Assembly: GCF_014643835.1 (NCBI RefSeq) | Contig: NZ_BMKD01000001.1 | Span: forward strand, 186,001-250,000 | Reading direction: 5' to 3' | DNA from: Mucilaginibacter rubeus | GTDB lineage: Bacteria > Bacteroidota > Bacteroidia > Sphingobacteriales > Sphingobacteriaceae | DNA: 64,000 bases | Shown: one piece after another, positions 19,687-58,557 of the stretch | Layout: every line of letters begins with the position of its first letter | How positions within the stretch are numbered: the first letter of the stretch is position 1 | Position numbers and translations under genes: made by a program | Notes under the pieces: generated by a model | The model's input: only the letters and a program-made list of their open reading frames with translations | The model's database searches: none | What the model was told of the DNA's origin: nothing

Positions 19687-19841
19687 ATATTGGTAAGTAA
19701 CATAAATATTGCAAAATGTTGAGTTGTTGACATGTTAAGATTTAATAGAATTTGTACCTGTAGGTTAAATTATTGTTATAGAATTAACAATAGGTTTACA
19801 TATGGCCGATTCCTTTGTAAAACTAATCGATCACTTATCAA

Positions 19842-21128
19842 ATGAAAAAACAATTCCTTAGCGTCATCGCGTTATCCGCGGCGATCCTTTCTTCCTGCCA
19901 CGATGATAATAAGATAAACCCATTCAGCTATCCTGATATGGCCGAGGCGCAAAATCCGGCTATCCTTTTCACCACTGCCGACGGTGTAAAGGTTTATAAT
20001 GGCGGCTTTGGATCGGCAGTGGCAGCAGATCCTAACCAGAAAGATGTGTTTTACCTGCTTACCGACCGTGGTTCAAACGTTGCCGGGCAGACAGCCAATT
20101 CCATCATCATCGGTAAACCAGACTTTGATCCGCAGATAGGTAAGTTCAGGTTAAAGGATGATAAACTGGTATTGGAACAAACCATAGAGTTAAAAAATGC
20201 CAACGGCGGGAAATTAAATGGTTTACCAAACCCCGCCGGAATGGGAGCTTCGGGCGAAATTCCGTTTGATCTGAGCGGAAATCAGTTATCACCAAGTGCC
20301 GATGGTATTGATTCGGAAGGTTTGGTTTTGGCAGCCGACGGTACTTTTTGGGTAAGCGATGAATACGGTCCGCATATTGTTCACTTTGATGCCAGCGGCA
20401 AAACCATCGAACGCATTAACCCTTACGGATCAGGAACCGGTGGCCGTAAAATCCCGGCTGTATTTGCTACCCGCAGGGCTAACCGCGGTATGGAAGGGTT
20501 GGCTATCACACCCGATGGCAAAACACTGGTTGGCATGATGCAATCGCCAATGTATAACCCATCTAAAGCAAAGGTTGCTAACTCAACTGTATTGCGCATC
20601 CTTACCTTTGATATTGCAACGGGCAATACAAAACAGTATGCTTACCTTATGGATAATACTTCATTAACAGGCGTTAGCGATATAACCGCTGTTAATGCCA
20701 CTACATTTTTAACTATTGAACGCGATGGTAAGTTCGGAGGTGCGCCTACCGATCCAGCTACGTTTAAAAAAGTATTTAAAATAGATATCAGCAATGCTAC
20801 CGATATCTCCGACCCCGCGAACGGTGCTAACGGCAAATTATATAACACCAAAACTGTTGAAGAGCTTAATGATGCCGCCGGTTTACAGGCAGCCGGTATT
20901 ACCCCGGTTACCAAAACACTGGTGCTCGATTTACTTAAAGACTTGCCAAAGGTATACCCTCATGATAAAGCCGAAGGTTTGGCTTTGTTGCCCGGTAATA
21001 TCCTCGCTATATCAAATGACGACGATTTTGGTGTTGTTGATAACGGTAAAAATGGCTTTGCAGCTAAAATTCTGCCTGCTACAAATTCGGTTGACAGGAA
21101 CAGGATCTATTTTGTGAAGCTAAAATAG
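19842..21128 (+). CDS. Esterase-like/phytase-like lipoprotein (PF13449 type)
   Basis: The 428-residue protein starts with a lipoprotein signal (MKKQFLSVIALSAAILSSC, Cys at residue 19). It contains the 'esterase-like activity of phytase' fold: DSEGLVLAADGTFWVSDEYGPHIVHFD, NRGMEGLAITPDGKTLVGMMQS, then SDITAVNATTFLTIERDGKF and HDKAEGLALLPGNILAISNDDDFG. This is a six-bladed propeller with an acidic, metal-ready face. It likely removes phosphate or another ester from small organic compounds at the cell surface. It is monocistronic, with a terminator after it. Confidence 0.85.
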   Translation: MKKQFLSVIALSAAILSSCHDDNKINPFSYPDMAEAQNPAILFTTADGVKVYNGGFGSAVAADPNQKDVFYLLTDRGSNVAGQTANSIIIGKPDFDPQIGKFRLKDDKLVLEQTIELKNANGGKLNGLPNPAGMGASGEIPFDLSGNQLSPSADGIDSEGLVLAADGTFWVSDEYGPHIVHFDASGKTIERINPYGSGTGGRKIPAVFATRRANRGMEGLAITPDGKTLVGMMQSPMYNPSKAKVANSTVLRILTFDIATGNTKQYAYLMDNTSLTGVSDITAVNATTFLTIERDGKFGGAPTDPATFKKVFKIDISNATDISDPANGANGKLYNTKTVEELNDAAGLQAAGITPVTKTLVLDLLKDLPKVYPHDKAEGLALLPGNILAISNDDDFGVVDNGKNGFAAKILPATNSVDRNRIYFVKLK

Positions 21129-30179: not shown

Positions 30180-30227
30180 GTGTTTTACCATCGGGTGAAA
30201 TTACACCGGAAATTGATTAAAATATTT

Positions 30228-30241: not shown

Positions 30242-30323
30242 TAAATTAATTATCTTGCGTCGCTAATATAAGGCCGCATTGTTATGCGCTTTAGCCAATA
30301 AACCATATTATAATTAAAAATCA

Positions 30324-32159: not shown

Positions 32160-32171
32160 GCTGCCTTGATC

Positions 32172-34136: not shown

Positions 34137-34204
34137 AGCTGAAAGCCGAAGGCTTAAAGCAAAAAGCTAAAGGCCCTGCCTTAAAAGCTTTTAGGCTTTC
34201 AGCT
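34137..34204 (+). terminator. Repeat-type hairpin after the propeller-cytochrome gene
   Basis: Perfect 11-bp arms AGCTGAAAGCC and GGCTTTCAGCT enclose a repetitive core (AAGGCTTAAAGCAAAAAGCT). The core resembles 6506-6532 (GCTTAAAGCAAAATGCT), so this may be a dispersed repeat used as a terminator. Confidence 0.5.
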
Positions 34205-34254
34205 AAACATGAATTAGTTATCTGATTATTTAACCCTGATCAATTGTTTTAAAA

Positions 34255-35025: not shown

Positions 35026-35031
35026 AAAAAA

Positions 35032-35125
35032 CGTCGTTGCGAGGAACGAAGCAATCGCAAACTGTACAGAGAGACTTGTATAGCTGCTTTGCTAATAGGG
35101 GATTGCTTCGTTCCTCGCAATGACG
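35032..35125. repeat. Palindromic intergenic repeat, family C
   Basis: Two 25-bp arms (35032-35056 and 35101-35125) match at 24 of 25 positions, beginning CGTCGTTGCGAGG and ending CCTCGCAATGACG. The centre has TATAGCTGCTTTGCTAAT, similar to the centre of 13717-13775. The element resembles widespread Bacteroidota palindromic repeats. Confidence 0.85.
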
Positions 35126-35164
35126 GTTTTAATAAATTGATGCCGTTTTTAAGGCGATCATCTT

Positions 35165-35261
35165 GCGCTCGTTTATAACGAGCGCTTAATATGGTTCGGC
35201 GATTGTATCGCCATTGCGTTATAAACGCAAACCCACGTTACGCACTCGTTGAAAACGAGCG
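35165..35261. repeat. Four consecutive palindromic hairpins
   Basis: GCGCTCGTT-TAT-AACGAGCGC (35165-35185), GGCGAT-TGT-ATCGCC (35198-35212), TTGCGTT-ATA-AACGCAA (35214-35230) and CTCGTT-GAA-AACGAG (35245-35259) follow one another. All have 3-base loops, and the first and last share a stem sequence. It looks like a REP-type cluster between two convergent genes. Confidence 0.85.
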
Positions 35262-35286
35262 CGAGATATTAAGGGCATTTAAAATC

Positions 35287-36516: not shown

Positions 36517-36547
36517 TGGTGACAGATTAAATTATAAAACATTATAA

Positions 36548-36556
36548 CATCAGATG
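36548..36556. promoter_or_regulatory. Candidate FadR-type operator before the MFS gene
   Basis: CATCAGATG (palindromic around the central A) sits within ATCAGATGAATT at 36549-36560, 33 bp before the MFS start. The same 12-mer occurs at 37238-37249 in front of the regulator gene. Confidence 0.5.
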
Positions 36557-36572
36557 AATTTGATGAAATTTT

Positions 36573-37226
36573 TTAATATTGATGAATTTCGATAACGGTA
36601 TTCCAGGCCTGTTTTGAATCGCAATCGAGAATGTTTTTCAGGAGCTTTTCGTGCAGGTGCTGAGTTTCGATAAAAATGCGCGTATCAGGGTGGATTTCAG
36701 TGAACCAGTTTTTTAAATGTACGGCTGCCGTTTTATATAGATCGCTCAGGATCTCGTTTTTTGATGCTTCGGCAATAGCGATGTGAAACTTAACATCAGC
36801 GTCAATGCACTCTTCCAATAGCCCGGCTTCGGCAGTTCTGTTCCTGGTTTCTAAATGGCTTTTCATGTTGAAAATATCTTTTTGCGAGCGGTTTATAGCA
36901 GCTTTCTCGGCTATTTTCATCTCCAGTAATTGTCTTACCTCATCAAGGTCCTGTGACCGGGCGCGTTTAATACGGGCTTCCATTGGCTCCGGATTAACAG
37001 TACTGCGCTCTACAAAAGTACCCGCACCCTGCTGGATCCTAAGCAGGCCTGATTGTACCAGGCTTTTTGTTGCTTCGCGAATGCTTGAGCGGCCAACACC
37101 AAACTCGGTCATAAGCTCCGGTTCGGTTGGTAGTTTATCATTTATTTGATACCTTCCTCCGGCAATCTGCTCCTTCAGTTTCTCAGCAATCTCTTCAGCC
37201 AGCGACCTTTTAATAATTTTACTCAT
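36573..37226 (-). CDS. GntR/FadR-family transcriptional regulator
   Basis: The 217-residue protein has an N-terminal winged helix (residues 8-75: YQINDKLPTEPELMTEFGVGRSSIREATKSLVQSGLLRIQQGAGTFV) and a C-terminal all-helical FCD ligand domain (about 85-215) that normally binds a carboxylic-acid effector. The FCD metal-binding residues are only partly traceable (DADVKFHIAIAEAS). It probably represses itself and the MFS gene 56 bp downstream through the shared CATCAGATG palindromes. Confidence 0.88.
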   Translation of the reverse strand: MSKIIKRSLAEEIAEKLKEQIAGGRYQINDKLPTEPELMTEFGVGRSSIREATKSLVQSGLLRIQQGAGTFVERSTVNPEPMEARIKRARSQDLDEVRQLLEMKIAEKAAINRSQKDIFNMKSHLETRNRTAEAGLLEECIDADVKFHIAIAEASKNEILSDLYKTAAVHLKNWFTEIHPDTRIFIETQHLHEKLLKNILDCDSKQAWNTVIEIHQY

Positions 37227-37235
37227 TTGTGTAAA

Positions 37236-37246
37236 TCATCAGATGA
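37236..37246. promoter_or_regulatory. Candidate FadR-type operator before the regulator gene
   Basis: TCATCAGATGA is a perfect 11-bp palindrome around the central A, 10 bp before the regulator's start codon, fitting autoregulation. Confidence 0.55.
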
Positions 37247-37412
37247 ATTGCAAAGGTATAGGTTTGTTTGAGAAATAAAAGTTATTTTGGGGCAAAATCT
37301 ATTTTAAAAAAAATAGTGCCAATTATTAGCCGGTGTTTTCTAAAGCATTAATATATATTTAAATTTAGCTTAACATTTGTGCCGTTACTTTGATGCCATA
37401 AAAATACCCCTT

Positions 37413-38021
37413 GTGAAACAATATTCGGATGCACAACTTTTACTTGAACTGCAGAGCGGTAACGACGGGGCATTCAGGGAAATTTATGAGCGCTACGCCG
37501 ATAGGTTAATTGCCTTCGCGTTAAAGAAAACGCAAAACGAGGATGAAGCGATGGATATGGTACAGGAGCTGTTCCTCTCCATATGGAAAAATCGTAATAC
37601 CATCCAGGTAAATGGTGCGCTTGAAGCCTACCTCATGGTTTCTGTTAATTACATGAGCTATAAGTGGTACAAAAAGCAAAGCATCAAGCCGCGACCGTTA
37701 GATGATGTTTCCAAATTACAGGAAACTTATGAACACAGCACCGACCAAAAACTTTCCCTTGCCGAATTGCACCTGTTAATCAATCAGGAAATAGCGGATA
37801 TGCCCGAGAAAATGCGACAGGTTTATTTGTGTAGCCGCGAGCAGGATATGACCGGCCCGCAAATAGCCGAATTTTTAGGCTTATCGCACCAAACCGTGCG
37901 CAACCAAATTAGTAATGCTTTAAGCAGGTTGAAGAAATCTGTTCAGAAGTATTATGATGTCATCCCCTTTGATAATTACAGCAGATTTTTGCTGTTGATA
38001 ATTTTTTTCAAAAAGTTATAG
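37413..38021 (+). CDS. ECF sigma factor of a FecR/SusC relay
   Basis: The 202-residue protein has region 2 (about 15-85: AFREIYERYADRLIAFALKKTQ, DMVQELFLSIWKNR) and region 4 (about 125-185: MPEKMRQVYLCSREQDMTGPQIAEFLGLSHQTVRNQI). I use GTG 37413 because the sequence then begins VKQYSDAQLLLELQSG, the usual family N-terminus, and because a -7-like TTACTTTG sits at 37384-37391. It precedes fecR and an STN-containing susC, so it should activate that operon when the SusC substrate arrives. Confidence 0.9.
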   Translation: MKQYSDAQLLLELQSGNDGAFREIYERYADRLIAFALKKTQNEDEAMDMVQELFLSIWKNRNTIQVNGALEAYLMVSVNYMSYKWYKKQSIKPRPLDDVSKLQETYEHSTDQKLSLAELHLLINQEIADMPEKMRQVYLCSREQDMTGPQIAEFLGLSHQTVRNQISNALSRLKKSVQKYYDVIPFDNYSRFLLLIIFFKKL

Positions 38022-38069
38022 TACACTCCTCCGTCTCGGGTCACTTATCAGGTATAAAGCCCCTGTTAG

Positions 38070-39008
38070 GTGAATCAAAGAGAAATAAAAAAACTACTAA
38101 ATAAGTTTAACGCCGGCAAATGTACCGACGAGGAATTGCAGCTTTTACAACAACTGATGCATAACATTGACACGGACGCCAAAACCGGCGACAATGTTAA
38201 AGCCCTTAAGCAACCGCTGTGGGAACGGATAGAAAAACAAACTATAGATAAAGGTAAAGTCCGCAGGCTAAATACCAGATGGTTAAGAGTTGCCGCCGCT
38301 GTTTTGGTAGCTGTATGTGCCGGACTGTTCTACTCCAAATTAGCTACCCACAAAAATGAGCAAATAGCTTACCAGGTAATCACCGCTCCTAAAGGCTGCA
38401 TGAAACAGATAATGCTGCCAGATAGCTCAACTGTTCAGTTAAACGCAGGCACATCGTTAAAGTTCCCGGTTAGTTTTGGCGATACGAAAAGAGAAGTAAC
38501 GCTGATAAATGGCGAGGCGTTTTTTGACGTGAAACATGATGTGAAGCGGCCATTTATGGTGCATGCCGCAAAAGTTATTACTCAAGTACTTGGTACATCG
38601 TTCAATATCAAATTTTATAAGGAGCTGCCCGACATACAGGTGTATGTGAACAGCGGGAAGGTAGAGGTGCATGATCAGCGCCATACATTGGGTTTTTACA
38701 CACCCAGGCAGCAGTTAACCTATAACAAACAACATGAAAGCTTTACGCGCCAGGAACTAACGGCTGATCATTCGCTGAGCTGGATGCATGAGGAGTTGAT
38801 ACTGGATAATGTGTCATTTAAGGAAATTACCGTTTATCTGCGAAACCGCTATAACGTGAATTTTAAATACAATGAAAAACGATTGGCGCAGCAGCATTAT
38901 TCGGTAAGGTTTTCAAATAACTTGAATATCAGGCAAGTGCTGGATATACTTCAGTTTATTGATGGCCGAAAGTATAAGTTAAACGGAGATACAGTAAATA
39001 TTAAATAA
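38070..39008 (+). CDS. FecR-type anti-sigma factor
   Basis: The 312-residue inner-membrane protein has a cytoplasmic N-terminus (about 1-75), one membrane helix (LRVAAAVLVAVCAGLFYSK, about 77-97) and a periplasmic FecR domain (LPDSSTVQLNAGTSLKFP, GEAFFDVKHDVKRPFMVHA, VLGTSFNIKFY). A C-terminal STN-like domain follows (NVSFKEITVYLRNRYNVNFKYNEKR). It relays signal from the SusC STN domain to the ECF sigma. The start is GTG 38070. Order sigma-fecR-susC-susD is the standard Bacteroidota arrangement. Confidence 0.93.
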   Translation: MNQREIKKLLNKFNAGKCTDEELQLLQQLMHNIDTDAKTGDNVKALKQPLWERIEKQTIDKGKVRRLNTRWLRVAAAVLVAVCAGLFYSKLATHKNEQIAYQVITAPKGCMKQIMLPDSSTVQLNAGTSLKFPVSFGDTKREVTLINGEAFFDVKHDVKRPFMVHAAKVITQVLGTSFNIKFYKELPDIQVYVNSGKVEVHDQRHTLGFYTPRQQLTYNKQHESFTRQELTADHSLSWMHEELILDNVSFKEITVYLRNRYNVNFKYNEKRLAQQHYSVRFSNNLNIRQVLDILQFIDGRKYKLNGDTVNIK

Positions 39009-39118
39009 CAATATGAAAGGAAAACCAATGCCTGCTCCAACAGGCACTGGCTCAATTAAGTGTAGCTGCCAAAACTAAAAGCCAACAGGCAGTTACTAAT
39101 CACTTTAAAAACAAATGT

Positions 39119-42100
39119 ATGGAAAAATCTTTAACCCGGATTTCAAGAAGATTAATCTCAGCAATTTTGTTGCTGGTAACAACCCTGACGGCAGTATTGC
39201 CCTCACGCGCCTTCGCCGAGCGTAGTGTATCGCTGATGGATCAGCCGGTAACCGTAAAGTTTGCCGATGAAACCATGGACGCCTCGCTCGAGAAACTCAA
39301 AAAAGCGGTAAATACCGTCGCATTTAACTACAAGATGGATGATGTGGCTGTGGTAAAAGTAAAGGCAAATTCATTTGTTAACAAACCATTAAAAGATGTG
39401 CTTAACGCTTTAACTGCCAATACGCAATTGGAGTACCGCGAAAAGTACGGCACTATCATCATCTCGCACAAAAAGGTGGTACGTGCACCCGAAAAAATTA
39501 CGGTGACCGGAACAGTGACCGATAAAGACGGTCCGCTGGCCGGCGTGGCTGTACGCAGCAAAACTTCAACTGCTGCCACTTCAACCGATGTTAATGGTAA
39601 TTTTAAAATTACTGTTGAAAAGGGCGAGGTGCTGGTTTTTAGCTTTATCGGCTACAAAAGCCGCGAAGTTGCCGCCGGTCAATCGCCGCTTAGCATTACT
39701 TTGGAGGCCGACGTTACGGGTTTAAACGCCGTAGTAGTGGTAGGTTACGGTACTCAAAAAAATACCGATGTAACCGGTTCGGTAGGTTCATTAAAAGTTA
39801 GTAATGTTAAAGATCGTTCGGTGGGTTCGGTGACCGAAATGCTGCAGGGACAAATTGCAGGTGTTACAGTTTTGAACGAAGGTGGTGACCCAACTTCGGG
39901 CCCAAGCATCAGGTTACGCGGTCAAAGCTCTTTCAATAATGAAGGTCCGTTGATGGTTGTTGACGGTACCATTTATAACGGCGGCCCCATCGATCCTTCG
40001 GACATCGAATCTATCGACGTATTGAAAGATTCATATGCTGCCATCTATGGTGCCAAGGCTGCCGGTGGTGTAATTTTGATCACTACCAAACGCGGTAAAC
40101 AAGGTAAAACCAATCTTGACATTACTGCAAAAGGCGGCGTACAAAACGCCTTGAAAATATTACAGGCCTTAAACGCTGCCGATTATGCAGATGCTATAAA
40201 TACTGCTTATGATAACGCAGGCAAAACCCGTTTGCCAGCTTTTGACGCCACTGTAAACCCTGATTCGCGTGTAACCCGTACCAACTGGACAGATGCCTTG
40301 TTCAGAACAGGCTACATACAGGATTATAATCTGAATATCAGCGGCGGTAGCGAAAAATCTACTTTTTATATTTCGGGAGGGTATCGTAAAAATGATGCTA
40401 TCCTGTTAAATACCAATGCTATCCGCTATAACTTTCGGGTAAACTCCGATCATCAGATCAATAACTGGTTAAAGATTGGCGAAAGTTTCTCTTATTCATA
40501 TAACAACGGTCAGGGTGCTAATACTACAAGCGCTTACACTGGTGCTATCTTATCGGCTATATTTTATCCGCCAAACGCTTCTATTTACAATGCCGATGGC
40601 AGCTTTGGTGGCGTACCCGCCCAATATGCAGGTTCATATGGCGACGTTATCAACCCGGTTGCTTACTTAAAGCGCCTGGATAACAGTGATGCTGTAAACA
40701 GCTTTAACGTGAACCCCTATGTAGAAGTAAGCCTGATCAAAGGTTTGAAATTTCGCTCAAATCTGGGCATAACCAAAAATTCTGAAACTATCAAAAACTT
40801 CAGCACACGAGTGCTGGAGCCCGGTAAAAAGTTTTTTGATAACTTCCTTTTCCAGGAGCAAAACAATACACGCACTATCCTGGCCGAGCAGACTTTAAAC
40901 TTCGACAGGACCTTTGGTAATCACCACGTAAGTGCTTTGGCAGGTTATACTTATCAGAATGATACCCAGGAGTTTTTTAGCGTTAACACAGATAACTACC
41001 TGAGCGAAGATCCTGCTTACCGTTATATCATCAACGGTAGTCTTAACCCAACAGGCGTACCGCTACAAGGCAACAAAAACGAATCTGCTTTGATCTCATA
41101 CCTGGGCAGGATCGGTTATGATTATGCAAGTAAATACTTTATCAACGGTATCATCCGTCGTGATGCTACTTCATTGTTAACAAGTAAAAACCGCACCGAG
41201 GTTTATCCTGGTGTATCTGCAGGCTGGTTAATCAGTAAAGAATCATTTTTTCCTACCGATGCATTGGTGTCGTTTGCTAAGTTAAGGGCAAGTTATGGCC
41301 AGTCAGGTAACCTTGCAGGTTTGCCAAGCTTCCCTACTTCAGTTTCTTTAAGTAAAACCGCAGGTTATTTAGGCAATCCGGCTACAGCTATTACTGGTTC
41401 GGCTGTTGATGGTTTGGCCAACCTTAATCTTAAATGGGAAAAAGCTACGCAAACCGATATCGGTGTTGATTTAGGCCTCATGAACGGTAAGATCAATGTT
41501 ACTGCCGATGTGTTTCAGAAAAGAAATACCCGCTTCCTCTTCCAGCCACCGGTTGCAGCTGTTTATGGCGTGTCAAACCCTCCGTTTGTTAATGGTGGTC
41601 AGATCACAAACAGAGGTATTGAGTTGGCGGTTAAATACCAGGGAAGCGTTGGTGAATTCCATTATAATTTAGCAGCTAACGGATCATACATCAAAAACAA
41701 AATTGATAACATACTTCCAGGTCAGCAAACCATCCTTTCTGGTCCAACAGTAAGGGATAACCTGGTACCTGTATGGTTACAACAGGGGTATTCTTTGTAT
41801 TCGTTCTTTGGATACAAAACCGCGGGCTTATTCCAATCGCAGGATGAGGTAAATAATTATAAAGGATCTTCGGGTACGCTTATTCAACCAAATGCAAAAC
41901 CAGGCGATATCAAATTCCAGGACCTTAATAATGACGGTAAAATAACCGAAGCTGATAAAACTTACCTCGGCACACCGTTTCCTAAATTTAGCTATGGTTT
42001 TACCGCAAACTTTAGCTATGGCCCGTTTGATATGAGCGTGTTTTTGCAGGGTGTAGCAGGCAACAAACTTTTCAATGCTGTTAAATACACTGGTTTAAAT

Positions 42101-42472
42101 GCATCTATCCAAAACTATAACCTGCTGGCCGATGCTAAAAACGCCTGGACACCAACGCATACCAACACCAATATCCCGCGCTTATCTGCAAGTGATGCAA
42201 ACGGCAACTTTGGTAACGTATCTGACTTTTACGTTGAGAACGGTTCATACATGCGTATCAAAAATGTAACGCTTGGTTACACGCTGCCAAAAGCGCTGAT
42301 GACTAAAATTGGCGTACGCAGCGCTCGCGTTTTTGCCAACGCGCAAAACCTGGCCACATTTACCAAATATACAGGTCTCGACCCCGAAGTTGGTATTAAC
42401 CAAAACGGTGTTGATTTAGGCTTGTACCCACAGGCAAGGATCATTTTAATAGGTGTTAACGTAGGCTTATAA
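39119..42472 (+). CDS. SusC/RagA transporter with STN signalling domain
   Basis: The 1117-residue protein has a signal peptide (ending SRAFAE, about 33) and an STN domain (about 45-115: ETMDASLEKLKKAVNTVAFNYKMDD). A CarboxypepD-like domain, a plug (LNAVVVVGYGTQKNTDVTGSVGSL, PLMVVDGTIYNGG) and a barrel ending ILIGVNVGL follow. The STN domain lets it signal through FecR to the ECF sigma. With SusD and the downstream glycerophosphodiesterase/phosphatase, its cargo may be a glycerophosphate-containing compound; this is inference from neighbours. Confidence 0.95.
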   Translation: MEKSLTRISRRLISAILLLVTTLTAVLPSRAFAERSVSLMDQPVTVKFADETMDASLEKLKKAVNTVAFNYKMDDVAVVKVKANSFVNKPLKDVLNALTANTQLEYREKYGTIIISHKKVVRAPEKITVTGTVTDKDGPLAGVAVRSKTSTAATSTDVNGNFKITVEKGEVLVFSFIGYKSREVAAGQSPLSITLEADVTGLNAVVVVGYGTQKNTDVTGSVGSLKVSNVKDRSVGSVTEMLQGQIAGVTVLNEGGDPTSGPSIRLRGQSSFNNEGPLMVVDGTIYNGGPIDPSDIESIDVLKDSYAAIYGAKAAGGVILITTKRGKQGKTNLDITAKGGVQNALKILQALNAADYADAINTAYDNAGKTRLPAFDATVNPDSRVTRTNWTDALFRTGYIQDYNLNISGGSEKSTFYISGGYRKNDAILLNTNAIRYNFRVNSDHQINNWLKIGESFSYSYNNGQGANTTSAYTGAILSAIFYPPNASIYNADGSFGGVPAQYAGSYGDVINPVAYLKRLDNSDAVNSFNVNPYVEVSLIKGLKFRSNLGITKNSETIKNFSTRVLEPGKKFFDNFLFQEQNNTRTILAEQTLNFDRTFGNHHVSALAGYTYQNDTQEFFSVNTDNYLSEDPAYRYIINGSLNPTGVPLQGNKNESALISYLGRIGYDYASKYFINGIIRRDATSLLTSKNRTEVYPGVSAGWLISKESFFPTDALVSFAKLRASYGQSGNLAGLPSFPTSVSLSKTAGYLGNPATAITGSAVDGLANLNLKWEKATQTDIGVDLGLMNGKINVTADVFQKRNTRFLFQPPVAAVYGVSNPPFVNGGQITNRGIELAVKYQGSVGEFHYNLAANGSYIKNKIDNILPGQQTILSGPTVRDNLVPVWLQQGYSLYSFFGYKTAGLFQSQDEVNNYKGSSGTLIQPNAKPGDIKFQDLNNDGKITEADKTYLGTPFPKFSYGFTANFSYGPFDMSVFLQGVAGNKLFNAVKYTGLNASIQNYNLLADAKNAWTPTHTNTNIPRLSASDANGNFGNVSDFYVENGSYMRIKNVTLGYTLPKALMTKIGVRSARVFANAQNLATFTKYTGLDPEVGINQNGVDLGLYPQARIILIGVNVGL

Positions 42473-42505
42473 TCAATCAGGAACCACAATTAAGAAGATA
42501 CAGAG

Positions 42506-44020
42506 ATGAAACTTAAAAATATAATTAGCAAAGGCTTAATGGGTGTAATGATTATTGCACTGGCCGAAAGCTGTAAAAAAGGCACTTTAGATAATATTAA
42601 ACCAACAGGTACGCCAACAAGCACCAACTTTTGGAAAACAGCTGCTGATGCCCAGGCCGCAGCTAATGGTTTGTATGAGAAACAAAGTAACAGCGAAGAC
42701 CTTTACGGTCGTGGTTTCTTTTGGTTCATTAACGCCAGTGATGATATGGTTGTAGGCCGTACATCAGCCGATAGGGAAAATATCAAAAACTTTGTGTGTA
42801 CCGGTAACGAGAGTAGTATTTACGCTCCATGGCAGTTGCACTTTGTTGTGATGAAACGTGCTAATGACGTGATCAACAACGTGCCGAACATTAACATGGA
42901 TGCGGCTACCAAAAACTTTATTTTGGGCCAGGCTTACTTTATTCATGCTGTAATGCACCTGGAAATTGCCGATCTATACGGATCGGACAAACAAGGCGCT
43001 CCTTTGCAAAATCGCGCCAATCCATTAGCGTTCCCGGCGCAATTGCCTTCAGTTAAAGATAACTACGCTTATATCGAGGCTGATTTGAAAAAGGCAGCTT
43101 CTTTACTGCCTTACTTTGATAAGCTTGCCGCTGCCGATAAAGGCCGCGCTCATAAAACTGCTGCTTATGCTTATTTGGCTAAAACTTACCTGCATGCTAA
43201 GGATTACGCTAACGCCGAAAAATATGCCGACTCGGTTATCCTCAGCGGAAAACATGCTTTGCTAAGTAATTATGCGGATGTGTTCAAGATCGCTAATAAC
43301 TATAGCTCTGAGTATATCTGGTCGGTTGCAAGTAACCTGAATGGCCAGAGTATTTTGCCTGGTGCAATGCTGGAGAACAAAGGCTGGGGTTTATATAACG
43401 GCTTCGGTTATTATCAGCCGACCAAAGAGCTTGTTGATGAGTTTGAAGCAGGCGATAAAAGGCTTCCGGCTACTATCCTGCAAAAAGGCGATAGCTTCCA
43501 GTATTTCGGTCAAACTTATACTTACCCAATTGGTGGTAAAAGCAACAGCTTAACCGGCTACCAGTTTAATAAATATATGGAACCGTTTAGCTATGCAGGT
43601 GGTATTCACGTAAGCCCTAACGGCGATGAGCCATCTACAGATTTAAACGTACCATTGTTGCGTTATGCCGAGATCCTGCTGATTAAAGCCGAAGCGCAGA
43701 TCATGCAGGGCAAAAACGGTGATGCCGCGCTTAACCAGGTGCGTGTACGTGCAGGATTGCCCCCGATTACTAATGCCACAATGGCAAACCTCAAACACGA
43801 ACGCCGCGTTGAATTGGCGGGAGAGTGGAGCGATCGCAATTTTGACCTGGTACGCTGGGGCGATGCACAGGCAATTTACGCAAAACCGTTACACGGTTCA
43901 GATGGCTCAGTTGTGTGGAAAGCTCGTAACTTTGACCCGGCGAGGGATAACGTTTGGCCAATTCCGCCAAAAGATATCCAGATAAGCCAGGGCCAGCTGA
44001 AACAGAATGCCGGCTGGTAA
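42506..44020 (+). CDS. SusD/RagB nutrient-binding lipoprotein
   Basis: The 504-residue protein has a lipoprotein signal (ALAESC, Cys23) and SusD architecture: N-terminal DNIKPTGTPTSTNFWKTAADAQAAANGLY, helical TPR-like regions (HKTAAYAYLAKTYLHAKDYANAEKYADSVILSGKH) and the family end VWPIPPKDIQISQGQLKQNAGW. It is the surface partner of the upstream SusC. A strong hairpin follows it, before the phosphatase fusion gene. Confidence 0.94.
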   Translation: MKLKNIISKGLMGVMIIALAESCKKGTLDNIKPTGTPTSTNFWKTAADAQAAANGLYEKQSNSEDLYGRGFFWFINASDDMVVGRTSADRENIKNFVCTGNESSIYAPWQLHFVVMKRANDVINNVPNINMDAATKNFILGQAYFIHAVMHLEIADLYGSDKQGAPLQNRANPLAFPAQLPSVKDNYAYIEADLKKAASLLPYFDKLAAADKGRAHKTAAYAYLAKTYLHAKDYANAEKYADSVILSGKHALLSNYADVFKIANNYSSEYIWSVASNLNGQSILPGAMLENKGWGLYNGFGYYQPTKELVDEFEAGDKRLPATILQKGDSFQYFGQTYTYPIGGKSNSLTGYQFNKYMEPFSYAGGIHVSPNGDEPSTDLNVPLLRYAEILLIKAEAQIMQGKNGDAALNQVRVRAGLPPITNATMANLKHERRVELAGEWSDRNFDLVRWGDAQAIYAKPLHGSDGSVVWKARNFDPARDNVWPIPPKDIQISQGQLKQNAGW

Positions 44021-44038
44021 TTGACATATTGAAACTTA

Positions 44039-44063
44039 CAAAACCGGGCACAGCCCGGTTTTG
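44039..44063 (+). terminator. Hairpin between susD-2 and the phosphodiesterase-phosphatase gene
   Basis: CAAAACCGGGC and GCCCGGTTTTG form a perfect 11-bp stem with loop ACA, ending 15 bp before the next ATG. Only four T residues follow, so it may reduce rather than stop transcription. Confidence 0.65.
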
Positions 44064-44078
44064 CTATATCTATACCAA

Positions 44079-45914
44079 ATGAAAAAAAGTACTACCCTAA
44101 TTACGCTGGCAGCGCTGCTGGCAAACGCCGGCCTCACGGCCAATGCGCAGGTTAAAAACTACACCGTAGCCGACGCGCACTCCCATAACGATTACAAAAA
44201 CAACATCCCTTTTTACCGGGCCTATGAAAAAGGTTTCGGTTCTATCGAGGCCGACTGTTATGCGGTTAATGGGCAGCTGATGGTGGCTCATGATAAAAAG
44301 GAGATTGACGCTAAAAGGTCGTTAAAAATCTTGTACATCGATCCGCTGATTGAAAAATTTAAACGCGACCCACAGCGCCATTTAAGGCTGCTTATCGAAA
44401 TTAAGGAAGATCATAAGGCGGTATTGCCCTTGGTGATCAAAGAACTGAAACCGTTAGAACAGTATTTTAATTATGAAGGTCACCCGGGACGGCTATCTAT
44501 AGTTATGACAGGAGCAGTGCCCCCTGCGGCAGAGATGACCAATTATCCGGCCTGGATCTCGTTTGATGTTGACCATATGAACGGCTTTACACCGGCGCAA
44601 TGGAAAAAGATTGGCATGGTAAGCTTTCCGTTTGGTAAATATATGCACTGGAATGGTAAAGGTGTATTGAATAACGAAGAGATTGCGAGGATAAAAGCGG
44701 GGATCGATAGCGTACATAACTCCGGTAAAAAGGTGCGTTTTTGGGAGACTCCCGATACTAAAAGCAGTTGGCTGGCGCTAATCCGTTTAGGCGTTGATGT
44801 AATTGGCACCGATAAAATAGAAGAGCTTGGCGATTTTCTGAACAAGAAGCCAGCAGGTGAATATACCGCGCCACAAGGGTATGGCATTTATAAGCCAACT
44901 TATAAATCGGACGGTGCGGTTAAGAAAGTTAAAAACATCATTTTGTGTATCGGCGATGGCATGGGCTTATCGCAGATTTATTCGACCTATACCGCCAACC
45001 GAGGCCAGTTGAATATTTTCCAGATACTCAACATTGGCTTTTCAGTAACTAATTCTGCCGATGCTTATATCACTGATTCGGCGGCCGGCGCCACCGCTTT
45101 TGCATCGGGCCAAAAAACTAACGACAGGGCAGTAGGTGTTGATCCGTCAGGCAAACCATTGAAATCATTGGCTGATTACAGCGCCGAAGCAGGCAAAAAG
45201 ACTGCCGATATTGTGGCCTGTGAATTGACAGACGCTACCCCCGCGGCCTTTTATGCGCACGACTCGGAGCGGAGCCATTCTACAGCTATCGCCAGTCAAA
45301 TTACTTCATCGCCAATTGATATTTTCTTAGGTTCATCTTATAAAGATTTCATCTGGCCGGTAAATGGCGAAAGTACTGTCGATAAAATGAAAAAGAGGGG
45401 ATACTTGGTGATCCGCAACTTTGATGAGTTTTTGAATAGTTCGGCCCCAAAAATCCTTGCTTTGATGGATGACAGCGTAACTCGCCCGAAAATGGAAGGC
45501 AGGGGGAATTATCTGTCGCTGGCATTTAATAAAGTAACCCAAACGTTCAAAAATGCCCCTAATGGTTTCTTTATGATGATTGAGGGTTCGCAGATTGACC
45601 ATGGCGGTCACGCTAACAACTTAAAACAGGTGATCACCGAAAATAGCGACTTTGACCGTGTTGTTGGCGATGCTCTGAAATTTGCCGACGAAGATGGCGA
45701 AACCCTGGTAATTGTAACTGCCGATCATGAAACAGGCGGCTTAACCCTGCTTGACGGCAGTATCAACGATGGTTACGTATGGGGCGATTTTAGCACCAAT
45801 GATCATACCGGTACCCCTGTTCCGGTATTTAGCTACGGCCCGCATTCCCTGGATTTCAGAGGGGTTTATAGTAATACCGAGATCTTTAACAAGATTAAGT
45901 CGTTGTTACAGTAG
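44079..45914 (+). CDS. Fused GDPD-like phosphodiesterase and alkaline phosphatase, exported
   Basis: The 611-residue exported protein (signal peptide ending TANAQV, about 24) joins two enzymes. Residues about 25-280 are a GDPD-like TIM barrel with AHSHNDY (His34, His36), SIEADCY (Glu57, Asp59) and VAHD (His71), plus LLIEIK. Residues about 285-611 are an alkaline phosphatase with CIGDGMGLSQ (Asp293), nucleophile Ser334 in ITDSAAGATA, EGSQIDHGGHANN, VTADHETGG. I use ATG 44079 rather than the upstream TTG. The first domain should split glycerophosphodiesters to glycerol-3-phosphate, the second dephosphorylate it to glycerol. The substrate is inferred; the fusion itself is plain. Confidence 0.9.
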   Translation: MKKSTTLITLAALLANAGLTANAQVKNYTVADAHSHNDYKNNIPFYRAYEKGFGSIEADCYAVNGQLMVAHDKKEIDAKRSLKILYIDPLIEKFKRDPQRHLRLLIEIKEDHKAVLPLVIKELKPLEQYFNYEGHPGRLSIVMTGAVPPAAEMTNYPAWISFDVDHMNGFTPAQWKKIGMVSFPFGKYMHWNGKGVLNNEEIARIKAGIDSVHNSGKKVRFWETPDTKSSWLALIRLGVDVIGTDKIEELGDFLNKKPAGEYTAPQGYGIYKPTYKSDGAVKKVKNIILCIGDGMGLSQIYSTYTANRGQLNIFQILNIGFSVTNSADAYITDSAAGATAFASGQKTNDRAVGVDPSGKPLKSLADYSAEAGKKTADIVACELTDATPAAFYAHDSERSHSTAIASQITSSPIDIFLGSSYKDFIWPVNGESTVDKMKKRGYLVIRNFDEFLNSSAPKILALMDDSVTRPKMEGRGNYLSLAFNKVTQTFKNAPNGFFMMIEGSQIDHGGHANNLKQVITENSDFDRVVGDALKFADEDGETLVIVTADHETGGLTLLDGSINDGYVWGDFSTNDHTGTPVPVFSYGPHSLDFRGVYSNTEIFNKIKSLLQ

Positions 45915-45940
45915 CTGCCGTAGCTTAATGGAGCGTTTAA

Positions 45941-45973
45941 AGCCTAACGATGCCTTTAAAACTTCGTTAGGCT
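45941..45973. terminator. Terminator between convergent phosphatase and glpF genes
   Basis: AGCCTAACGA and TCGTTAGGCT form a perfect 10-bp stem with a 13-base loop. The flanks hold only short T/A runs. Confidence 0.65.
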
Positions 45974-45992
45974 AATGCTGTTTTGACGAGAT

Positions 45993-46724
45993 TTATAGCT
46001 TAATTGAAAGATACAATACAGCGGCAATGGAAGCCCCAACCAATGGGCCGATAATCGGGATCCATGCATAAGCCCAATCGCTCGTTCCTTTGCCTTTTAT
46101 CGGTAATAGCATATGCATAAAGCGCGGCCCAAGATCACGGGCCGGGTTGATAGCATAGCCGGTAGTGCCTCCTAATGACAAACCGATCACCCAAACCAGT
46201 AATGCTACCGGGATAGCGCCTACTGAGCCCAGACCAATAGGGGTTTTAGCAGGCGTGATTTCGGCACCGGCTATGTAGAAAATGGTGAAGAGCAATACAA
46301 AAGCACCTATTACCTCGCTGGCGATGTTTGATATGTAATTGCGTACGGCGGGACCAGTGCAAAATACAGCCAATATAGAAGCCGGATCATTTGTGCGTTT
46401 AAAATGATCGTAATACATTACCCAAACTAAAAAGGCGCCGATACAAGCGCCCGCAAACTGAGCGATAATGTAAGGAACAACGTTGGTCCATGCAAACTTA
46501 CCTGCAATAGCAAGTGCTATGGTTACGGCAGGGTTGAGGTGCGCACCGCTATACGGCCCGGCAACAACAACCCCAACAAAAACGGCTAATCCCCAGGCGG
46601 TGGTGATCACTATCCATCCGCTGTTATTTCCCTTGGTATCTTTTAAAACTACGTTGGCTACTACACCATCACCTAATAATATCAAGAGCATGGTGCCTAT
46701 CAGCTCAGCTACAAATGGAGACAT
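45993..46724 (-). CDS. glpF: Glycerol facilitator (aquaglyceroporin)
   Basis: The 243-residue protein has six membrane spans and two half-helices with the NPA signatures: SGAHLNPAVTIALAI and TGYAINPARDLGPR. The GLSLGGTTGYAINPARDLGP form, with Asp after the second NPAR, is typical of the glycerol-conducting (GlpF) branch, consistent with co-transcription with glpK and glpD. It allows glycerol to pass the inner membrane. It is the last gene of the glpD-glpK-glpF operon (24 bp after glpK). Confidence 0.95.
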   Translation of the reverse strand: MSPFVAELIGTMLLILLGDGVVANVVLKDTKGNNSGWIVITTAWGLAVFVGVVVAGPYSGAHLNPAVTIALAIAGKFAWTNVVPYIIAQFAGACIGAFLVWVMYYDHFKRTNDPASILAVFCTGPAVRNYISNIASEVIGAFVLLFTIFYIAGAEITPAKTPIGLGSVGAIPVALLVWVIGLSLGGTTGYAINPARDLGPRFMHMLLPIKGKGTSDWAYAWIPIIGPLVGASIAAVLYLSIKL

Positions 46725-46748
46725 GTTAAAATATTTTAAAGATGGATA

Positions 46749-48263
46749 TTAAATAACTGTTACAGGATGCCCGGAATTTGACCAGCATTGAGCAGTGCTT
46801 ACCGCACGTTTCCAACCCGCAATGCCCGATTTTACTTCATCAAGATCGTCAGCCGGAGTAAATTCCGCTTCGGCGGCCCACAAGTGCTGAATTTCGGCTA
46901 TATCTTTCCAATAGCCTACAGCCAGCCCGGCCATATAGGCTACACCAAGTGCTGTAGTTTCGGTAACTTCGGGCCGGATCACTTTGCAGTTTAATACGTC
47001 TGACTGAAACTGCATCAGCAGGTTATTGGCAGTCGCCCCGCCATCCACACGCAGTTCTTTTATCTCCATGCCTGCATCAGCTTCCATCGCTTTAAGCACA
47101 TCCATGGTTTGGTAGGCTATTGATGATAATGCGGCCCTTGAAATGTGGGCTGCTGTAGCACCCCTGGTTAAACCAACTATAGCCCCCCGGACTTCCGGGT
47201 CCCAGTAGGGAGCACCCAAACCTGCAAACGCGGGTACAAAGTAAACGCCCGCGGTATCTTTTACTGAGGTAGCCAGCTTTTCAACATCTGCCGACGTTTT
47301 GATAATGCCCAGCCCGTCGCGCAGCCACTGCACTACCGCACCGCCTATAAAAATACTGCCCTCAAAGGCGTAGGTGATCTCGCCGTTTATTTTCCAGGCG
47401 ATGGTGGTAAGCAGGTTGTTTTTTGATTTGATAAACTCATGTCCGATATTCATCAGCATAAAACAGCCTGTGCCATAAGTGTTTTTAACCATCGCTTTAT
47501 CAATGCACATCTGCCCGAACAATGCTGCATGCTGATCGCCGGCTATACCTGCAATCGGGATCCTTTGCGCAAACAAATTATTGGCTGTTTGTCCATATAG
47601 CTCGCTTGATTGTTTTACTTCGGGCAAGATACTTTTTGGGATATTGAACAGTTGTAGCAACTCCTCGTCCCATTGTTGTGTGCGGATATTGAACAGCATG
47701 GTACGGGCGGCATTGGTTACATCGGTAGCGTGAACTTCGCTGCGGGTTAACTGCCAGATGAGCCAGCTGTCAACCGTGCCAAAAGCCAGTTCACCGGCTT
47801 CGGCCTGTGCCCTGGCACCCTCAACATTGTCCAGGAGCCATTTTATTTTTGAGCCGGAAAAGTAAGCATCTATTACCAGGCCGGTTTTATCGCGGATCAT
47901 TTCGCTATGACCGTTTTGCTTTAGTTCATCGCAAAAGGCGGCGGTACGCCTGTCCTGCCAAACAATGGCGTTATGAATTGGTTCGCCGGTTTTGCGGTTC
48001 CAAACTATGGTGGTTTCGCGCTGATTAGTTATACCTATGGCTTTAATATTGCCGCCACCCAAGCCTGCTTTTGCAATAGCTTCTGCGGCAACCCCAATCT
48101 GGCCTGCCCAAATCTCATTAGGGTCGTGTTCAACCCAGCCGGGCTTAGGAAAGTATTGCTTAAATTCTTTTTGTGCCGAAGCAATAATTTTACCTGTATG
48201 ATCAAAAACTATTGCCCGCGAACTGGTAGTGCCCTGGTCGAGCGCTAAAATATATTCCTGCAT
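46749..48263 (-). CDS. glpK: Glycerol kinase
   Basis: The 504-residue FGGY kinase matches GlpK in length (E. coli 502) and in motifs: [93 protein letters not shown] and [17 protein letters not shown]. It phosphorylates glycerol to sn-glycerol-3-phosphate with ATP. The gene lies 57 bp after glpD. Confidence 0.97.
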
Positions 48264-48320
48264 AATTTGGTTTGGTTTACCTTGGTTTATTTATTGAATA
48301 TCACATTAAATTTGCTCATT

Positions 48321-49901
48321 TTAATGTAGTGTTAGTATATAATTTTTTGCTGTTTCGTTAAATGCATTAATTTGTGCGGCTTCCCATGCTGCATCTTTTC
48401 CCAACTCAGCGGCCATAAGGTGTGCTACTTCGGCAGTCATTTCGGTAGCTAAGCGGGCATCTAAAAATAGTACACGGGTACGGCGCGCCAGGATATCCTC
48501 AACAGTACGCGCCATTTCATTCCTTACCGACCAGATTACCTCAGCCTTAGTATACCTATCTTTAGGGTGAACCGGGTTTCCCCAATCCGGGTTTTCATTT
48601 TGCAGTGCTACAATCTTTTCAATGTCGGCACCATAAACAAACATAGGGTTGGTACGGTCGGGGTTAGGGCGACTGCCATGGATAGATAATGAAGCGGTTT
48701 TACAGGGCTCGTTTTTAAGCCCGCCAAACTCAATGGCCTTATCAACAATATCTTCGGCCATTTTGCGATAGGTAGTCCACTTACCGCCGGTTATGGTAAT
48801 TAAGCCGGACGCGGAAACGATTAATTTATGGCTTCGGGAAATTTCCTTTGTTTTTGATGATCCATCTTGTGGGGCGGCAAGCGGTCGTAAACCCGCAAAT
48901 ACACTTAATACATCGGCACGGGTAGGGGCTTTGGTGAGGTATTTGCCCGCGGTTCGTAGTATAAATTCCACTTCTTCGTCCAGTGCCACCGGCTCAAGGC
49001 TGTGCGAGTTGATTGGGGTATCTGTAGTGCCTATCAATAATTTCTCATGCCAGGGAACTGCAAAAAGTACGCGCCCATCTTCCGTTTTTGGGATCATCAG
49101 CGCATCGTCGGCCGGTAAAAATGAACGGTCGAGTACAAGGTGTACGCCCTGGCTTGGCCTAACCATGGGCTTCTTTTCGGGGGTATCCATTTTTAGTACA
49201 TCATCAACAAAAACGCCGGTGGCATTGATCACTGTTTTTGCCTTTAATTGATACCCGGCGCCTGTCTCTGTATCAGTGGCTTTTACGCCTATGATTTTAT
49301 TAGTAGTATCTTTGATTAATCCGGTTACTTTAAAGTAATTGAGCAAGGTTGCACTCTGTTCAACGGCGGTTTGCGCCAGGTTAATTGCCAGCCGAGAATC
49401 GTCAAATTGCCCGTCGTGATAAACCACCCCGCCATGAAGCCCTTTTTCCTGGATGCCGGGCAGTCGTTTAATGGTGTCTTTTTTTGAAATATGTTTTGCA
49501 CGGCCAAAGCTTAGCTTGCCAGCTAATAAATCATAAATGCTGAGACCTATCGTATAAAAAACACCATCCCACCAGCTATAATTGGGAATAATGAAGCTTT
49601 CGTTTTTTACAAGGTGTGGTGCGTTTTGTAATAATAATCCCCGTTCACGCAAGGCCTCGCGCACCAGGCCGATATCGCCCTGTGCTAAATAGCGCACCCC
49701 ACCATGAACCAGTTTGGTAGCACGGCTCGACGTTCCTTTGGCAAAATCGGCCTGCTCCAGTAATAATGCAGAGAAGCCGCGCGAAGCTGCGTCGACTGCA
49801 GCGCCAAGTCCGGTAGCTCCGCCGCCTATGATGATCAGGTCCCAGATCTTTTCGATATCGTTGAGGTGGCTAAGGTTCGCTTCTCTTGTAAATGAGTTCA
49901 T
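48321..49901 (-). CDS. glpD: FAD-dependent glycerol-3-phosphate dehydrogenase
   Basis: The 526-residue enzyme has the FAD-binding IIIGGGATGLGAAVDAASRG near residue 24, then FAKGTSSRATKLVHGGVRYLAQGD, VINATGVFVDD and ITGGKWTTYRKMAED. It oxidises glycerol-3-phosphate to DHAP and passes electrons to quinones at the membrane. I choose ATG 49901; an upstream TTG at 49922 would put the start inside the operator. It is the first gene of glpD-glpK-glpF, divergent from the DeoR-type regulator. Confidence 0.95.
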   Translation of the reverse strand: MNSFTREANLSHLNDIEKIWDLIIIGGGATGLGAAVDAASRGFSALLLEQADFAKGTSSRATKLVHGGVRYLAQGDIGLVREALRERGLLLQNAPHLVKNESFIIPNYSWWDGVFYTIGLSIYDLLAGKLSFGRAKHISKKDTIKRLPGIQEKGLHGGVVYHDGQFDDSRLAINLAQTAVEQSATLLNYFKVTGLIKDTTNKIIGVKATDTETGAGYQLKAKTVINATGVFVDDVLKMDTPEKKPMVRPSQGVHLVLDRSFLPADDALMIPKTEDGRVLFAVPWHEKLLIGTTDTPINSHSLEPVALDEEVEFILRTAGKYLTKAPTRADVLSVFAGLRPLAAPQDGSSKTKEISRSHKLIVSASGLITITGGKWTTYRKMAEDIVDKAIEFGGLKNEPCKTASLSIHGSRPNPDRTNPMFVYGADIEKIVALQNENPDWGNPVHPKDRYTKAEVIWSVRNEMARTVEDILARRTRVLFLDARLATEMTAEVAHLMAAELGKDAAWEAAQINAFNETAKNYILTLH

Positions 49902-49943
49902 TTTATTTCGATATTTATTCAAATATATAAAATCGAAATAAAA
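49901..49943. promoter_or_regulatory. Perfect palindromic operator at the glpD start
   Basis: Arms TTTTATTTCGAT (49901-49912) and ATCGAAATAAAA (49932-49943) are perfectly complementary around a 19-bp spacer. TTTCG...CGAAA is the pattern used by several DeoR-family repressors. The left arm reaches the glpD start codon, so binding would block the glp operon. Confidence 0.65.
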
Positions 49944-49980
49944 ACAAAACTAAATGAAATTAAAAATAATTTTATTTGGT

Positions 49981-49988
49981 TACATTTG
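49981..49988 (+). promoter_or_regulatory. Bacteroidota -7 box for the glp regulator gene
   Basis: TACATTTG matches the TAnnTTTG consensus, about 67 bp before the regulator ATG. The -33 TTTG partner is not clean. Confidence 0.4.
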
Positions 49989-50054
49989 ACTAACACGGAG
50001 CACAGTAAGCTTTGCAAAACATTACAGTTAATTTTTCTGTTTAATTTAGCGATT

Positions 50055-50819
50055 ATGAGTAAAAACACCGACCGGCATAAGTTTATCCTGCAAAAGGTTG
50101 AGACAGATGGTTTTGTGAATGTGCAGGATCTGAGCAACCTGTTAAGTGTTTCGGAAGTTACCATCCGAAAGGACCTGAAACTTTTGGAAGATAAAAACCT
50201 ACTTTTCAGAACGCATGGTGGTGCAAGCCAAACTAACCCTTATGCTAATGACAGGCCGGTAGCCGAAAAGGAGAAACTGAACGGCCCCGAAAAAAGAAAA
50301 ATTGCCGCAGAAGCAGCGATAAGGATAGATACCAATGATTCGGTTATTATAGCCTCAGGTACCACAATGCTCGCCCTTGCCCGTGCCATGCAGCCTAATA
50401 AGCATCTTACGGTAGTCACCGCAGCTTTGCCGGTAGCGCTTGAACTTTTGCAGCATCCGCAGGTTGATATTGTTCAATTGGGGGGACAAATGCGAAACAC
50501 ATCCTCATCGGTAACCGGTAATTATGCCGAACTGATGCTGGACGATATGTTATGCGGCGTGTTGTTTTTAGGAGTAGATGGCATTGATCCTGAAATAGGC
50601 TTGACTACTACTAATTTATCCGAAGCCCGCCTTAACCAAAAAATGATCAATGCGGCCCAAACTACCATTGTATTGGCCGATAGTACCAAATTTGGTAAGC
50701 GGGGCCTGGCAAAAATTTGCGCGCTTGATCAAATCAACGAAATTATTACCGATAGCGGTATTAGCCCGGCAATGCTCAATATGCTGGAAGAAAAAGGGGT
50801 GAAGGTAACGGTGGTTTAA
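50055..50819 (+). CDS. DeoR-family regulator of the glp operon (GlpR-like)
   Basis: The 254-residue protein has a DeoR helix-turn-helix at the start (HKFILQKVETDGFVNVQDLSNLLSVSEVTIRKDLKLLEDKNLLFRTHGGA) and a DeoR C-terminal phosphosugar-sensing domain (SVIIASGTTMLALARAM, ADSTKFGKRGLAKICALDQINEIITD). I use ATG 50055; the region upstream (49986-50054) is the divergent promoter, not coding. Divergence from glpD and the palindrome between them suggest it represses the glp operon, with glycerol-3-phosphate as probable inducer. Confidence 0.88.
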   Translation: MSKNTDRHKFILQKVETDGFVNVQDLSNLLSVSEVTIRKDLKLLEDKNLLFRTHGGASQTNPYANDRPVAEKEKLNGPEKRKIAAEAAIRIDTNDSVIIASGTTMLALARAMQPNKHLTVVTAALPVALELLQHPQVDIVQLGGQMRNTSSSVTGNYAELMLDDMLCGVLFLGVDGIDPEIGLTTTNLSEARLNQKMINAAQTTIVLADSTKFGKRGLAKICALDQINEIITDSGISPAMLNMLEEKGVKVTVV

Positions 50820-53962: not shown

Positions 53963-54041
53963 AAAATAAATTTTTTTTCAGTTTGTAGGGATAATTGGGG
54001 TAGGGTGCTGTCTATAAGGAGTAAATAACACCTTATAAACA

Positions 54042-55076: not shown

Positions 55077-55087
55077 ACGAATAACTT

Positions 55088-58540: not shown

Positions 58541-58557
58541 CAATTAAATTGAATACG

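Follow-up and report, generated by a model that had tools for sequence, protein, structure and literature searches.

A probable PUSII-type organic-phosphorus acquisition operon with a Pho-box-like promoter in Mucilaginibacter rubeus

Relationship to known phosphate-utilisation loci

The PUSII locus of Flavobacterium johnsoniae is induced by phosphate depletion and, in the sections of its description available to us, to which all statements on PUSII below refer, comprises the FecR-like Fjoh_3252, PusC2 (Fjoh_3251), PusD2 (Fjoh_3250) and PhoA1 (Fjoh_3249), the last of which has an added pf13653 domain (Lidbury et al., PMC8115612). By its locus tags the order is FecR-SusC-SusD-PhoA on one strand. 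The same order is found in a 64,000-nucleotide stretch of the Mucilaginibacter rubeus genome (NZ_BMKD01000001.1, positions 186,001 to 250,000; hereafter the window, whose own numbering is used throughout), where an extracytoplasmic function (ECF) sigma factor gene, fecR, susC, susD and a gene for a two-domain fusion enzyme form a single plus-strand block behind a Pho-box-like promoter:

37348..37375, plus strand: Pho-box-like operator, three TTAA-type direct repeats with an 11-bp period (TTAATA-N5-TTAAAT-N5-TTAACA), conserved in relatives
37385..37392, plus strand: -7 element TTACTTTG, exactly 9 bp past the operator
37413..38021, plus strand: ECF sigma factor, GTG start; PF04542 and PF08281, with TIGR02985 just below its cut-off
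38070..39008, plus strand: FecR anti-sigma factor; PF04773, PF16344
39119..42472, plus strand: SusC (PusC2-like) TonB-dependent transporter; TIGR04056, 843 bits
42506..44020, plus strand: SusD (PusD2-like) lipoprotein; PF07980, PF14322
44079..45914, plus strand: fusion of a glycerophosphodiester phosphodiesterase (GDPD)-like domain and an alkaline phosphatase, with the domain make-up of PhoA1; PF13653 and PF00245

Besides gene order, the two loci have in common the SusD domains PF07980 and PF14322 and a phosphatase with pf13653. They differ in that the window operon is headed by an ECF gene and the Pho-box-like promoter, whereas no ECF factor is named for PUSII, and in that glycerol (glp) genes adjoin the window operon, none being mentioned for PUSII (PMC8115612). 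We conclude that the ECF-FecR-SusC-SusD-fusion core is of a described kind, the PUSII type, as judged by gene order and domains rather than by alignment, and that in Mucilaginibacter it probably serves in organic-phosphorus acquisition. An earlier reading of this DNA, made from the sequence only, had known of no described locus of this layout; the matching order and domain pair of PUSII supply one (PMC8115612), so that the locus is an addition to a described phosphate-utilisation kind, which is thereby extended to Mucilaginibacter. Our literature search found no paper on SusCD with teichoic acid and polysaccharide utilisation locus.

Among more distant relatives, the Chryseobacterium loci (L032-L037 in our numbering of loci) have the same layout as the window, with SusC and SusD 44-54% identical. 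In loci of Bacteroides, Phocaeicola and Prevotella (L046, L047, L049, L050, L052-L054, L067, L068) the gene after SusC-SusD encodes an alkaline phosphatase with 42-46% identity to the C-terminal domain of the fusion, and the GDPD-like domain was not found there by tblastn. Of the 23 loci fetched from the rest of the window's family, which we take to be Sphingobacteriaceae (L170-L172 and L270-L289, the latter being the best-scoring 20 of 95 places outside Mucilaginibacter), 20 have SusC and SusD ahead of the fusion. The same is seen in 15 of 46 loci of a family labelled f36 (46 genomes, all fetched; in L173 one gene lies in between), in 8 of 17 loci of a family labelled f54 (17 loci fetched for 29 genomes) and in all six Chryseobacterium loci. 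The proposal that a SusCD system is tied to a phosphodiesterase-like/phosphatase fusion is thus borne out in several Bacteroidota groups. Within the close Mucilaginibacter loci (L001-L023), 11 of 23 have the fusion without SusCD. One such locus, L005 (7492-17553; Mucilaginibacter sp. SMC90), keeps the GntR gene, the fusion and the glp genes, and is without ECF-FecR-SusCD and the box.

The promoter

The regions upstream of the ECF gene diverge among Mucilaginibacter save for one block, and this block holds both the repeats and the -7 element. The layout consists of three TTAA-type hexamers at an 11-bp period, exactly 9 bp, and then TAnnTTTG or TTnnTTTG; TAnnTTTG is presumably the Bacteroidota -7 consensus, and direct repeats at an 11-bp period overlapping the -35 region are what we take to define a Pho (PhoB) box. 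The ECF gene starts at the in-frame GTG at 37413, a start kept in relatives, and the TTG start chosen by the open reading frame caller (37377) falls within the promoter.

The operator with its -7 element scores highest of 127,912 positions in the window, and none of 100 mononucleotide shuffles reaches that score. When sites were ranked in other loci, over some 24,000-44,000 positions per locus, the composite promoter came first in all 13 SusCD-type and all 10 SusCD-less close Mucilaginibacter loci; where the fusion occurs without SusCD, the box stands directly before the fusion gene. In a diverged Mucilaginibacter group it was first in 8 of 10 loci and second in one more, and among the 23 loci of other Sphingobacteriaceae it took first place in 12 and second in 7. 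Left out of this ranking were copies or near-copies (L001, L003, L182-L184, L189), L005 (no box), L174, L173, L033, the f54 loci without SusCD and several SusCD-less f36 loci (22 f36 loci were scanned). Each of the four promoter sets has its highest mean score at a period of 11 and a gap of 9, and by these period and gap controls the operator has the 11-bp direct-repeat layout of a Pho box. A first motif scan of two genomes, made without the -7 element, had returned mostly unrelated genes.

The resemblance of the operator to a Pho box suggests, as a prediction from sequence, that the operon is controlled by phosphate starvation. A literature search gave no paper whose title or opening abstract lines define a Bacteroidota Pho box. 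The main text of PMC8115612 has no mention of 'Pho box', the available part of a B. fragilis PhoB paper (PMC3547664) has one mention and no sequence, and that of the ElpS paper (PMC2996285) has no sequence for comparison. The composite promoter may be new.

The same promoter at other genes

Elsewhere in the window the composite promoter recurs 24 bp upstream of a phytase-like gene:

19773..19817, plus strand: composite promoter, scoring 19.5 and second in the window (rank 1 of 127,912, the best being rank 0)
19842..21128, plus strand: phytase-like lipoprotein gene, putatively co-regulated; PF13449, 1e-57

In L171, L272 and L275 a homologue of the phytase-like protein, 79-81% identical, is encoded no more than a few kb from the fusion. 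These genes lay outside the motif set, and all four phytase-like promoters have a composite site at rank 0 or 1, those of L272 and L275 being near-identical.

A search of 18 genomes for the composite pattern, allowing two mismatches at most, gave 81 matches against 16 for a reversed control. All 11 exact matches adjoin the operon or the fusion, as is to be expected because the motif was built from there, and 15 of the 18 genomes have a match beside the operon or fusion. The remaining 66 of the 81 matches lie away from the fusion. The next gene was read at 15 of them, a non-random choice (one from the genome scan, eight mostly picked by eye and six picked later), and proved to encode a TonB-receptor-type or SusC-type outer-membrane protein at five sites, a lipoprotein without a Pfam match at three, an ECF factor at two, a PhnX-like hydrolase at two and an outer-membrane efflux protein at one, with two unclear. 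The products induced by low phosphate in F. johnsoniae likewise include lipoproteins, TonB-dependent receptors and an ECF factor, according to the available part of that study (Lidbury, PMC8115612).

On balance we favour the view that Sphingobacteriaceae have a sequence-defined Pho promoter, made up of repeats at 11 bp, a 9-bp gap and the -7 element, that stays with the fusion whether this stands in the ECF-SusCD operon or alone, and that phytase-like genes, along with genes for surface lipoproteins, TonB-dependent receptors and ECF factors, are under its control as well. If this is true, ECF-SusCD uptake would come under PhoB, a switch for starvation being added on top of one for substrate, and the promoter offers a DNA signature by which phosphate regulons in Sphingobacteriaceae could be recognised directly from genome sequence.

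The PhnX-like (phosphonatase-like) hydrolase genes, in L364 and L365, have a near match to the box upstream, and near matches of this sort recur in several of the scanned genomes. These sites also have TTTAGT/CTAAAC repeats, which may belong to another regulator.

The fusion enzyme

The 617-residue open reading frame of the fusion matches the alkaline phosphatase family PF00245 over residues 291-563 (6.9e-57, 193.7 bits). A fold search shows 40-41% identity between this domain and the TAB5 alkaline phosphatase (2w5v, 2iuc), which it resembles in both fold and sequence; the match is limited to the C-terminal domain, the TAB5 chains being of 375 residues. Residues D293, S334, D385, T387, R398, E502, D507, H511, D549, H550 and H576 are the same in all 27 aligned sequences, that of the window included, and we take them to correspond to the catalytic residues and metal ligands of E. 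coli alkaline phosphatase. From its sequence the C-terminal domain is predicted to be a genuine alkaline phosphatase.

Assignment of the N-terminal domain is less direct. Its only match above cut-off is the GDPD_2 motif PF13653, of about 30 residues, found at residues 224-252 of the fusion (1.5e-6, 28.9 bits against a cut-off of 27) and at 30.6 bits when the domain is searched by itself; the full-length GDPD family PF03009 reaches 16.3 bits, under its cut-off of 23.6. A predicted model of the domain has a predicted local distance difference test (pLDDT) score of 90, and searches with it return barrels of GDPD, spider sphingomyelinase D and phospholipase D at template modelling scores of about 0.5-0.6, the top two rows being a phage spike domain and a multidomain glucanase. 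With the GDPD and sphingomyelinase D-like enzymes (3no3, 1xx1, 3qvq) the domain has in common the TIM-barrel fold and a His, Glu-x-Asp, His, Glu/Asp-x-Lys series, presumably the catalytic residues of that family, at 10-18% identity. In the fusion these positions are H34, E57, D59, H71, E107 and K109. The first three and K109 do not vary, H71 is nearly invariant and position 107 holds either Glu or Asp, a pattern that is consistent with a phosphodiesterase site. On the strength of the model, 'phosphodiesterase-like' is a fair label. The sequence-only reading had taken the enzymes to point to glycerophosphodiesters, phospholipid headgroups or teichoic acid; specificity of the domain for glycerophosphodiesters is not established.

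The fusion is predicted to be secreted, from a signal peptide read by eye. M. gossypii is the nearest named relative, with a fusion 98% identical, and in a tblastn search against plasmids no record covered 80% of the fusion.

The neighbouring glp genes

Downstream of the fusion gene lie four genes that the sequence-only reading had joined with the operon into a single 'complete' locus:

45993..46724, minus strand: glpF-like MIP channel, neighbour judged to be outside the system; PF00230
46749..48263, minus strand: glycerol kinase glpK, neighbour; TIGR01311, 747 bits
48321..49922, minus strand: glpD-like glycerol-3-phosphate dehydrogenase, neighbour; PF01266, PF16901
49986..50819, plus strand: DeoR-family regulator, neighbour; PF08220, PF00455

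All nine genes that it listed between 37413 and 50819 are present and match their families. GlpD and DeoR fall under the NCBIfam equivalog cut-offs, and the DeoR gene can be called GlpR, or a regulator of glp, by position only. The domain scan covered these nine proteins and that of the adjoining GntR gene, and found no carbohydrate-active enzyme (glycoside hydrolase or lyase) among the ten.

The glp genes are convergent to the SusCD-fusion block. In 120 Mucilaginibacter genomes the full fusion is found in 44, a glpK match in 69 and both in 26, and in 9 of these 26 the two are linked within 20 kb; all nine are close kin, with fusions at least 92% identical. Co-occurrence of fusion and glpK in the 120 genomes is not significant when all glpK matches, remote kinases (39-45% identity) among them, are taken (p = 0.85), nor when only the 61 genomes with glpK at 60% identity or more are counted (26 of 44 fusion genomes against 35 of 76 others, p = 0.19). 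In a family sample of 301 genomes at least 75 have both genes, at least 63 of them outside Mucilaginibacter; among the matches listed, linkage was seen in two Mucilaginibacter genomes and in none outside, the next nearest pair being 53 kb apart. As glpK places were listed for 149 of 204 genomes, linkage at family level is a lower bound. The distance from fusion to glpK is 835 bp in the window, 841-1253 bp in three linked genomes and 3443-4212 bp in the other six, which thus have some 2.6-3.4 kb extra; in the two loci read, the extra gene encodes a CHU_C type IX cargo protein, by Pfam in L002 and as the same 631-residue kind by sequence in L005.

A glycerol link draws its strongest support from a locus of another family, L173 (3249-13130), which is built in a different order: susD and a calcineurin-type phosphatase gene lie just upstream of the fusion, and after it come a type I phosphodiesterase gene, deoR, glpDKF and a metallophosphoesterase gene. 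By a rough estimate there is a probability of about 0.27 that the 86 loci fetched outside Mucilaginibacter would include one or more glp neighbourhoods.

We place the glp genes outside the system because linkage is limited to close kin and co-occurrence is not significant; they are probably recent neighbours, a separate unit that arrived or was retained beside the operon in one clade. A glycerol-coupled unit, and with it the single complete locus, was rejected on the linkage and co-occurrence tests and the convergent arrangement. The sequence-only reading had named a lack of conserved linkage as its own refutation; the SusCD-fusion part of the linkage is conserved and the glp part is not, beyond close kin and the lone distant case of L173. 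The neighbourhood carries a warning against inferring metabolic units from adjacency, as these glp genes look meaningful yet fail both tests.

Three further leads were discarded. A SusD match (47%) near glp genes in L199 is a short stretch, in a SusCD locus followed by an unrelated enzyme (by eye); in L221 glpD and the fusion are about 7.5 kb apart, separated by unrelated genes (by eye); and a shared glp operator AWCGAAAY has 12 matches in the window against 10.5 expected, two at glpD-deoR and none before the ECF gene.

Proposed function and alternatives

The operon is best seen as phosphate-starvation-controlled uptake with a second, substrate-sensing ECF/FecR layer. From the promoter architecture, phosphate starvation would lead a PhoB-type regulator to bind the three 11-bp-spaced repeats and to recruit RNA polymerase at the TTACTTTG element. 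ECF and FecR would then be made and, as in their families generally, substrate at SusCD would relieve FecR, and the ECF factor would raise susCD. A phosphorylated compound could thus be bound by SusD and imported over the outer membrane by SusC. In the periplasm, judging from domains and conserved catalytic-type residues, the GDPD-like domain would cut the phosphodiester and the alkaline phosphatase domain would take phosphate off the monoester, giving inorganic phosphate and an alcohol, all in one protein. Inorganic phosphate would be the main prize; were the substrate a glycerophosphodiester, glycerol would be a by-product, which the neighbouring glp genes could burn.

Several observations weigh against this interpretation. 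L005, a 24th close locus, is without the box, and the period-11/gap-9 peak is absent from f54 and Chryseobacterium and weak at best in f36; the box therefore offers no explanation of low-phosphate induction in Flavobacterium. In a control on pst-porin promoters from three genomes the box ranks 2, 9 and 0 of about 7,500, with period 11 highest in two of the three by small margins and the gap to the -7 element unscored. The lipoprotein and receptor genes of L282 are without a composite site, and 3 of the 18 fusion-bearing genomes have no match beside the fusion. The window's fifth-best composite site, scoring 17.6 on a good -7 element and weak repeats, lies in the glpD-deoR region, making weak Pho control of glp a possibility. 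The GDPD-like domain is distant from known GDPDs, and the loci are related by descent, their counts being non-independent events.

The promoter is where another explanation comes closest, for the repeats precede an ECF gene and, with the pst-porin control weak, could be an autoregulated promoter of that factor or of another regulator rather than a Pho box. They also stand before all 10 scanned fusions without ECF or SusCD, a set that does not include L005, and before all four phytase-like genes, and the composite box was not found before susC in the window; we regard autoregulation as rather doubtful. An integrated glycerophosphodiester catabolic locus, in which the glp genes under DeoR would be the dedicated downstream path of a carbon-acquisition unit, is chemically sensible and draws on the nine linked genomes, on the independent arrangement of L173 with its further phosphoesterases and on glpK of at least 60% identity being somewhat, if not significantly, commoner with the fusion. 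It is unlikely in view of the convergent units, the extra DNA in six of the nine linked genomes with type IX cargo in the two read, the p of 0.85 with all glpK matches, and the 63 or more genomes outside Mucilaginibacter with both genes, none linked among the matches listed and the nearest at 53 kb.

An ordinary polysaccharide utilisation locus for a phosphorylated glycan, with the fusion trimming phosphate groups, would fit the typical ECF/FecR/SusCD layout and the carbohydrate-type SusCD loci that flank the operon on both sides. With no glycoside hydrolase or lyase among the ten scanned proteins, and with the fusion also found alone under the same promoter, we consider this very improbable. 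We retain phosphate-starvation-controlled uptake as the best explanation of the operon.

Other features of the window

Two candidate RNA-level elements lie within the operon:

39017..39118, plus strand: structured leader before susC with two hairpins, between fecR and susC; conserved
44040..44062, plus strand: terminator-like GC hairpin in the susD-fusion gap, present in 15 of 15 aligned Mucilaginibacter loci

The leader has no Rfam match. The fold of 39009-39130 has a z score of -2.67, and in helix 2 of the leader 98% of cells are paired, with two pairs changed on both sides (compensatory). Strong matches to the leader model occur only in Mucilaginibacter operons, in a search of the window and 61 loci. 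The hairpin at 44040-44062, which the terminator scan did not call, might serve to attenuate the enzyme gene. At its N-terminus SusC has an STN match that lies below the cut-off.

Two further SusCD loci are present in the window. At 53342-61802 there is a separate ECF-FecR-SusC-SusD locus, the ECF and FecR genes being assigned by sequence, with an alpha-L-fucosidase gene just downstream; at 21546-35025 SusC-SusD is accompanied by an FG-GAP/ASPIC protein, two 3-keto-disaccharide hydrolases and a cytochrome-c domain protein.

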